Positions 12,209 through 13,142 of a stretch of DNA of 23,865 bases are shown one piece after another (position 1 is the stretch's first letter; each line of letters starts with the position of its first letter). The stretch comes from a virus. The stretch lies in IMG/VR virus record IMGVR_UViG_3300024520_000495, positions 1 through 23,865 of that record; one strand, 5' to 3'. The notes under the pieces are model-generated. The model did no database searches and had not been told where the DNA came from. It saw only the letters and a program-made list of their open reading frames with translations. The position numbers were made by a program, and so were the translations under genes.

Positions 12209-12250
12209 GCCGCTCCGCAGCGCCGCTCGTTGTGGGGCGGCCTTTTTTTT
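12209..12250 (+). terminator. rho-independent terminator of the rightward operon
   Basis: The stem GCCGCTCCGCA pairs with TGTGGGGCGGC over 11 positions with two G-U pairs, enclosing an 11-nt loop, and is followed by T8 (12243-12250). It is positioned to end the 28-gene transcript. Confidence 0.8.
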
Positions 12251-12458
12251 GTTTTAGATTTACTGCTATTGCCTCTGGTGGGCGCGTGGTACGTGTGATC
12301 TGAGGCGGTCTGGTCGATACCCGTTTTGAGAATGGCTTACCTATGCCGATAAATCCGCGCAAAACGGATCCGGAATTCTACAAGCTAACAACCACGCGGG
12401 TTGTAGCACCGCGCCTCGATGCCCAACGCTGGTAAGCGGTTGATTGTGGGGTGCGTAG
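12251..12458. other. intergenic, with inverted repeats and one micro-ORF
   Basis: No gene of normal size. CCGTTTTG (12321-12328) and CAAAACGG (12360-12367) form an 8-bp inverted repeat, and ACAACC (12388-12393) with GGTTGT (12399-12404) a 6-bp hairpin. A 30-codon plus-strand frame, ATG 12343 to TAA 12435, has coding-like composition but no good ribosome-binding site. These may be operators upstream of the single-gene unit. Confidence 0.4.
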
Positions 12459-12508
12459 TAAAATGGGTATGTGGGGCGAACTGCTACCCCGCGTGTTCTT
12501 TAACAATT
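12459..12508 (+). promoter_or_regulatory. promoter -10-like box, hairpin and rrn-type boxA leader
   Basis: A TAAAAT hexamer (12459-12464; no well-spaced -35, with TTGATT at 12440 only 13 nt away) is followed by the hairpin GTGGGG (12471-12476) / CCCCGC (12487-12492). Two bases later comes TGTTCTTTAACAATT (12494-12508), which matches the boxA antitermination motif of proteobacterial rRNA leaders. The order hairpin-then-boxA is that of E. coli rrn leaders. NusB/NusE would bind boxA RNA; antitermination here is inferred. Confidence 0.55.
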
Positions 12509-12546
12509 CGTCGCACAAACCAATCCACGATTAAAGGAGAAACACC

Positions 12547-12810
12547 ATGTCTAACGACAAAAAAGAAACCGGAACCCCGAAGATTCTAATCATCGTCCCC
12601 CACTATTGGGGCAAGGGTTCCACCATCGCGGAAGCATGGCGGCAAGTCAAAAAAGCCAGCTACAAAAATCTGCGAGATTTGAAGCGTGGGTCGTATGCCA
12701 TTTATTCCGGGCACGATACGGAAGCGGTGAAACTAGCCGTTGATGATATGGGATGGGTACGGCACGACAAAGATTTTCCGATTACTGAAATCGAAGTCGT
12801 ACGCAAATAG
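12547..12810 (+). CDS. hypothetical protein, 87 aa, single-gene transcription unit
   Basis: Not recognised. A strand KILIIVPHYWGKG (residues 12-24) is followed by a helix with basic residues (AEAWRQVKKASYKNLRDLKRG), then beta-like YAIYSGHDTEAVKL and a C-terminal EIEVVRK. It has no cysteine or membrane segment. AAAGGAG precedes ATG 12547. The gene has its own promoter-like element with boxA and its own terminator 8 nt after the stop. This isolation between two large operons suggests separate, probably constitutive or very early, expression, as for regulators or host-takeover proteins; this is inference. Confidence 0.75.
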   Translation: MSNDKKETGTPKILIIVPHYWGKGSTIAEAWRQVKKASYKNLRDLKRGSYAIYSGHDTEAVKLAVDDMGWVRHDKDFPITEIEVVRK

Positions 12811-12817
12811 CAACCAG

Positions 12818-12844
12818 CCCCCGGCGAAAGTCGGGGGTTTTTTT
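12818..12844 (+). terminator. rho-independent terminator with GAAA tetraloop
   Basis: CCCCCGGC pairs with GTCGGGGG (8 pairs, one G-U) closed by a GAAA GNRA tetraloop and followed by T7. It ends the single-gene unit. The minus-strand lysis gene stops at 12843 within the T-run, but the opposite strand lacks a U-tract, so the leftward transcript is not ended here by the same mechanism. Confidence 0.85.
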
Positions 12845-13142
12845 ATGTCTGCTGATTTTGTTTCGCGATCAATGCGTCGAGCTTTCCCATAACAAGGGAG
12901 TGATGCGAATCAACCTTCTGGATAATTTCCCGACGCTGTGAATCCCGCAAGTCACGATCCTCGCGGCGACGAATCAACTCGGTAGAGTCGTGTTGCTTGA
13001 TCAGTGCAACGGCAGTCGTAAGCTGCCCAAGCAAATCATCCTGTGCTTTTAATCGTCTGAACACAAATAGAAACCCAAAGCTGAGAACAACCCAGAACCA
13101 GTCTAATACCTTTGAAAGTATAGTCGCTTCAATCGGGTCCAT
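12843..13142 (-). CDS. small membrane protein with coiled-coil tail (lysis region)
   Basis: 99 aa. One transmembrane segment lies near the N-terminus (WFWVVLSFGFLFVF, about residues 14-27), followed by a charged, helical C-terminus rich in R, D, E and Q (LIRRREDRDLRDSQRREIIQ) that could form a coiled coil. It is the last gene of the leftward tail/lysis block, two genes after a holin, so a holin-accessory, antiholin or spanin-like role is possible. ATG 13142 has AAGG 9 nt upstream. The longer frame to 13196 lacks an SD and overlaps the preceding gene. Confidence 0.6.
   Translation of the reverse strand: MDPIEATILSKVLDWFWVVLSFGFLFVFRRLKAQDDLLGQLTTAVALIKQHDSTELIRRREDRDLRDSQRREIIQKVDSHHSLVMGKLDALIAKQNQQT

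Follow-up and report, generated by a model that had tools for sequence, protein, structure and literature searches.

A hairpin-boxA leader resembling that of rRNA operons before a single small phage gene, and its recurrence in unrelated phages

The window, by which we mean the whole stretch of DNA analysed here, is an IMG/VR virus record of 23,865 nt. Its genes include those for an ERF annealing protein, a YqaJ exonuclease, and holin-like, tape-measure and J-like tail proteins, in line with the first-pass annotation, which had spoken of a phage gene. The similarity of these other genes points to gamma-proteobacterial phages, the record being fragmentary. The rightward early genes (ERF, YqaJ) stop at a strong terminator, and the right side of the window holds the leftward holin-like, tape-measure and J-like tail genes. 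A lone rightward unit preceded by boxA is flanked by the early operon's end on one side and by the convergent lysis and tail genes on the other. Since the terminator at 12209–12250 closes the early operon, the boxA leader opens a separate unit, with the following features:

12209–12250, + strand: intrinsic terminator (14-pair stem and T-run) closing the upstream rightward early operon
12459–12464, + strand: TAAAAT, a putative −10 hexamer with no recognisable −35, at the same place with respect to hairpin and boxA as its counterparts in other phage leaders
12471–12492, + strand: 6-bp hairpin, GTGGGG (12471–12476) with CCCCGC (12487–12492), at the presumed RNA 5′ end, abutting boxA
12494–12508, + strand: boxA, TGTTCTTTAACAATT, with the core GTTCTTTAACA at 12495–12505
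12533–12539, + strand: Shine-Dalgarno sequence (SD) AAAGGAG, 28 nt past the boxA core (script count from AAGG/AGGA)
12547–12810, + strand: ORF of an 87-aa orphan protein, ATG at 12547, with a P-x-YWGKG-x-T-[IL]-A-x-A motif near the N-terminus
12816–12846, + strand: intrinsic terminator of the single-gene unit, stem 12816–12839 followed by a T-run

The TAAAAT box, the hairpin and the 15-nt boxA that the first-pass annotation had placed before the gene at 12547 are all present, as is the single 264-nt gene with its own terminator, and the hairpin-boxA leader before a single gene is a real observation. With terminators on both sides and convergent neighbours, the unit is a candidate phage moron, its promoter being only putative. 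The gap before the leader contains a possible 30-aa ORF (12343–12435, MPINPRKTDPEFYKLTTTRVVAPRLDAQRW), whose start resembles that of ORF054 of the Pseudomonas phage PA11 (MRINPND).

The boxA core (12495–12505) matches without mismatch GYTCTTTAANA, the gamma-proteobacterial consensus of Baniulyte et al. 2017 (PMC5725501). The consensus is present once in the window, at this boxA only, and no second site was found there when one mismatch was allowed. The 11-mer alone is weak evidence, because 7 of 100 dinucleotide shuffles of the window contain it somewhere; the weight rests instead on the 15-nt extension of boxA, its strand, its place and the hairpin. For the full 15-mer, 3e-5 occurrences are expected from base composition, a figure calculated after the fact.

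The isolated hairpin (12471–12492) has a predicted folding energy of −10.1 kcal/mol (z −2.1) and ends 1 nt upstream of boxA; shuffling the 36 nt upstream of boxA produced an equally good abutting stem 42 times in 2000. It belongs to the best fold of an RNA begun at 12471. When the RNA is begun at 12465, another fold wins that pairs the two flanks of boxA; this fold (12465–12521), which applies to RNA starts upstream of 12466, has 13 interrupted pairs enclosing boxA and is not significant against shuffles (z −0.69). An Rfam search gave no match. As a −10 hexamer, TAAAAT ties for a place in the top three of the window's + strand. No acceptable −35 was found at 15–19 bp from it, so that its rank as a complete promoter is 561 out of 23,815 positions; the promoter scan called none at 12459–12464, and a slightly better-scoring candidate lies at 12327–12354. 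For want of a −35 box, the start site of the boxA leader is only putative. We also considered a Nus-operated translational switch in which boxA sequesters the SD, as suggested by the pairing of GUGUUCUUU with AAAGGAGAAACAC in the fold started at 12471. This was rejected, as 19 of the 38 other ribosome-binding regions of the window pair with boxA equally well or better, and the other leaders have no consistent excess of such pairing.

No homologues of the 87-aa protein were found in viral contigs, genome contigs, phages, plasmids, Pfam or PDB, and the best PHROG match had an E-value of 0.2. A search with the degenerate pattern P-x-YWG-x-G-x-T-[ILV]-A returned three unrelated proteins and a 77-aa protein from a phage contig of 64% GC (L327); extended by a further A, the pattern gave only chance matches in genomes. 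The L327 protein shares 11 of 17 residues with the window protein around P-x-YWGKG, with a BLASTP E-value of 8e-7 for a single comparison on a motif-chosen segment. From these residues homology is plausible, if not proven. The L327 gene has the same anatomy as the window, but with a clear and strong promoter (TTGCAA-17-TATAAT-AGCCTCA). It is followed by a 5′ hairpin of −12.7 kcal/mol (z −4.6; 0 of 200 shuffles as good), a boxA-like TGTTCTTT (TGTTCTTTCATA), the SD and the ATG, and a GC-rich hairpin comes after the stop codon. In contrast to the window, its boxA is one base off the consensus and is separated from the SD by 8 nt rather than 28.

The first-pass annotation had suggested a search of related phages for the same motif ahead of this gene. 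The arrangement recurs in unrelated phages. Exonuclease synteny yielded no relatives of the window phage, and the holin relatives (L122–L124) have a different neighbourhood without a consensus boxA. To measure recurrence, viral contigs were searched for TGTTCTTTAACAA-N10-40-GGAG-N4-10-ATG, with the reversed motif as a control, which gave 58 stretches against 34. Of 38 non-redundant boxA-SD-ATG sites, 15 lay outside ORFs of at least 95 codons, as against none of 32 sites with the reversed motif (Fisher p 2e-5), which indicates that boxA before phage start codons is selected and not due to chance.

The best stem ending no more than 5 nt from boxA was then scored at all non-redundant boxA sites of the fetched viral loci other than the window; the set is mixed, part of it coming from a scan restricted to sites with a −10-like hexamer, a criterion that does not select stems. 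At intergenic phage sites (n = 55) the mean stem score was 10.31, a value reached by 0 of 200 shuffles (7.95 ± 0.43), and strong abutting stems numbered 21 where 6.7 were expected. For boxA inside long ORFs (n = 117) the mean was 8.33 against 7.79 (6 of 200 shuffles reach it), with 12 strong stems observed and 13.2 expected. The abutting hairpin is therefore common but not universal, being strong at only 21 of the 55 phage sites. Examples of abutting stems are:

L113: GCCCT/AGGGC
L285: GATTGA/TCAATC
L262: GTTGA/TCAAC
L290: TGTCAGCT/AGTTGACA
L014: TATGCCCT/GGGGCATA
L238: GATGG/CCATC

Several of the clear hairpin-boxA cases have TTGAC...TATAAT promoters shortly upstream. Behind boxA lie either single small genes, often with a nearby terminator (L157, L029, L146, L154, L287 and the window) or phage tRNA arrays (L262, with 25 tRNA genes in the locus, L285 and L232). 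Among 20 phage leaders measured, 14 have 26–40 nt between boxA and the SD, in a sample taken partly from a pattern with an upper limit, with PA11 ORF054 and LKA1 coming from outside that pattern. Short gaps of 4–9 nt occur in L327, L238 and L014, as in suhB, so both spacing classes may exist.

Some further features of these leaders were observed. boxA together with a strong promoter precedes the tRNA arrays at L262:4852, L285:5259, the L232:6700–6800 region and L106, and among the tRNA-array leaders the hairpin abuts boxA in L262 and L285. The reverse strand of L147 (reverse-complement position 12523) carries three tandem boxA-like copies, one perfect and two ATTCTTTAACA, directly preceding the SD of a 128-aa gene. 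L139, L157, L146, L154 and L287, which represent two different leader families, have a further hairpin with a GAAA tetraloop (GTGCGAAAGCAC, CCGCGAAAGCGG) between boxA and the SD.

The conservation of boxA can be followed in a gene family of Pseudomonas phages. ORF055 of PA11 (Zobellviridae) and ORF1 of LKA1 (Autographiviridae) encode proteins of 49–50 aa that are 58% identical, and boxA lies 62 nt before the ATG in the former. LKA1, which was reached by protein homology alone, carries a perfect GCTCTTTAACA at a distance of 54 nt from the ATG, the chance of which we estimate at about 1e-4 for 60 positions. PA11 ORF054, which precedes ORF055, also has a boxA, 55 nt before its start. L133 (29%) and perhaps L138 (21%) are weaker, more distant relatives of these proteins, and are not independent cases because they were found via their boxA. 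Relatives of PA11 retain the ORF055 boxA and the gene but have exchanged what lies upstream of them; the corresponding segment of PP21 is the one found before the ORF054 boxA in PA11. A more distant homologue in Marinobacter phage PS6 has no boxA, so the link between boxA and gene is not universal. Like the window, the leaders of ORF054, ORF055 and LKA1 ORF1 have a perfect boxA before a small phage gene (54–62 nt), but the hairpin is not adjacent to boxA and the protein family is another one. The feature tables of the PA11 and LKA1 records contain no boxA annotation. The elements, their order, their recurrence and their conservation are all observed in phages. As a separate observation, when L338:1250–1660 (PA11) is compared with the related Pseudomonas phages L334, L335 and L336, boxA and the gene are conserved but similarity breaks off sharply immediately 5′ of boxA, a pattern that would suit boxA as a junction at which promoter segments are swapped.

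We tentatively read 12459–12546, at close to but under an even chance, as the rrn-type leader, using host Nus factors, of a moron-like phage cassette with one gene, probably protecting the transcript from Rho and from pausing. Host RNA polymerase would start near 12471, and the first ~22 nt of the transcript would fold into the hairpin. Host NusB-NusE(S10) would then bind the adjacent boxA and form, with NusA, NusG and SuhB, an rRNA-type elongation complex. The short transcript would be shielded from Rho-dependent termination and pausing before translation begins, and the leader's output would be tied to the supply of Nus factors. In this scheme we infer where transcription starts, that Nus factors bind and which way the effect goes. 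The first-pass annotation had proposed that the leader may sequester NusB/NusE, speed elongation or act on the terminator. Since the main target of rrn-type complexes is Rho, suppression of the intrinsic terminator is the least likely of these functions. The same annotation had found antitermination of a long operon an odd purpose for one gene, which is a fair objection given a 264-nt ORF followed by a terminator; a translated gene of this size has little obvious need of protection from Rho. Furthermore, the published mRNA cases (suhB and a ParE-like toxin) repress.

Repression of the suhB type is the main rival, a less likely but possible reading. NusB-NusE-SuhB on boxA would block the 30S subunit at the SD, leaving translation uncoupled so that Rho terminates, and the gene would be expressed once rRNA synthesis draws Nus factors away. 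Both mRNA boxA leaders studied experimentally, suhB and C. koseri CKO_00699 (ParE-like toxin), are repressive (PMC5725501), E. coli suhB and the window have the same boxA core, GTTCTTTAACA, and L327, L238 and L014 have suhB-like gaps. However, the spacing argues against repression and leads us to favour protection and elongation: the gap in the window is 28 nt, against 6 in suhB, and most measured phage leaders fall at 26–40 nt. In addition, suhB itself has no hairpin upstream of boxA, and the same leader is found ahead of phage tRNA arrays, for which translational repression makes no sense; there, by analogy with rrn, shielding of untranslated RNA from Rho would be the obvious role.

A role for boxA is absent altogether if transcription starts elsewhere or the leader is inert, the resemblance being chance or a relic. 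The missing −35, the slightly better promoter candidate at 12327–12354 and the occurrence of the 11-mer in shuffled windows agree with this, but we consider it quite unlikely in view of the 15-mer identity to rrn/suhB-type boxA on the right strand and in the right place, the accompanying hairpin, SD and terminator, the enrichment of the layout in phages and the retention of boxA between PA11 and LKA1. It is very doubtful that the leader serves as a decoy, an abundant RNA that titrates NusB/NusE and so lowers host rRNA synthesis or a competing phage's antitermination. The triple boxA-like leader of L147 and the two boxA leaders in adjacent genes of PA11 would suit such a role, but the window has one boxA per transcript and no strong promoter, and all leaders in the gap count are joined to an SD-bearing gene. 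Least probable of all is a 5′ hairpin that mainly guards the mRNA from 5′-end-dependent decay with boxA as a bystander; with TAAAAT as the −10 the hairpin would indeed open the transcript, but a perfect boxA, and a hairpin abutting boxA specifically, are then left unexplained.

Returning to the protective leader, the hairpin-boxA arrangement is probably a real and little-described phage route for borrowing a host transcription complex, because other small genes and tRNA clusters of unrelated phages are preceded by it as well. It is possible, short of an even chance, that unrelated phages carry a class of portable cassettes, each with a single gene or a tRNA array, whose leaders imitate host rrn P2 (promoter, 5′-terminal hairpin and boxA) and recruit the rRNA-type Nus elongation complex and in which boxA is kept while the surrounding leader is exchanged. 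To our knowledge, boxA beyond rRNA and lambda-type nut sites is documented in only a few mRNAs, all bacterial, and is repressive in both tested. An rrn-like hairpin-boxA leader on single phage genes or phage tRNA arrays was not found in the open-licence literature searched. If the reading is true, phages exploit the rRNA elongation complex with no antiterminator of their own, and it becomes testable whether an mRNA boxA activates or represses according to its distance from the SD. Unannotated boxA-led genes are then candidates for growth-linked or early host-takeover functions.

Among known systems, suhB mRNA and the C. koseri ParE-like toxin leader (CKO_00699) resemble the window in that boxA lies in the 5′ UTR of one protein-coding gene. 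suhB has the identical core, but the window has a hairpin before boxA and a longer gap to the SD. In the window the start of the boxA core is 52 nt from the ATG, just beyond the 50 nt that the screen in PMC5725501 allowed between boxA and the start codon; the same paper gives 407 predicted cases of mRNA boxA. Lambda-type nut sites are likewise phage RNA elements that work with host Nus factors (putatively so in the window), but in the window the order is reversed, with the hairpin before an rrn-like boxA. No N-like gene was identified in the window record, which is incomplete.

The first-pass description of an rrn-type hairpin-boxA leader on a single gene is supported by E. coli rrnB P2 as well as by the recurrence in unrelated phages. 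The rrnB P2 leader reads TATTAT-GCACACCCC-GCGCCGCT...AGCGGC-AC-TGCTCTTTAACAATT, that is −10, hairpin and boxA, where the hairpin segment between GCACACCCC and AC-TGCTCTTTAACAATT is GCGCCGCTgagaaaaagcgaAGCGGC, and the boxA of the E. coli 16S–23S spacer likewise lies directly 3′ of a hairpin. The phage leaders thus follow the rrn arrangement, opposite to that of lambda nut (boxA, then boxB). By eye, 12509–12530 is unlike the E. coli boxC (TGTGTGGGC), and no stable GNRA-type hairpin was seen after the window boxA in predicted folds. With E. coli rrn P2 (boxB hairpin, boxA, boxC) the window shares a putative −10, the hairpin at the presumed RNA 5′ end and the adjoining boxA, whereas its boxA is a 1-nt variant (TGTTC), it has no consensus −35, and it leads one small translated gene rather than an rRNA operon. 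The window does not transcribe a long untranslated RNA, only one 264-nt ORF and then a terminator, and its leader is therefore best described as one that works like an rrn leader, rather than as one that is an rrn leader.
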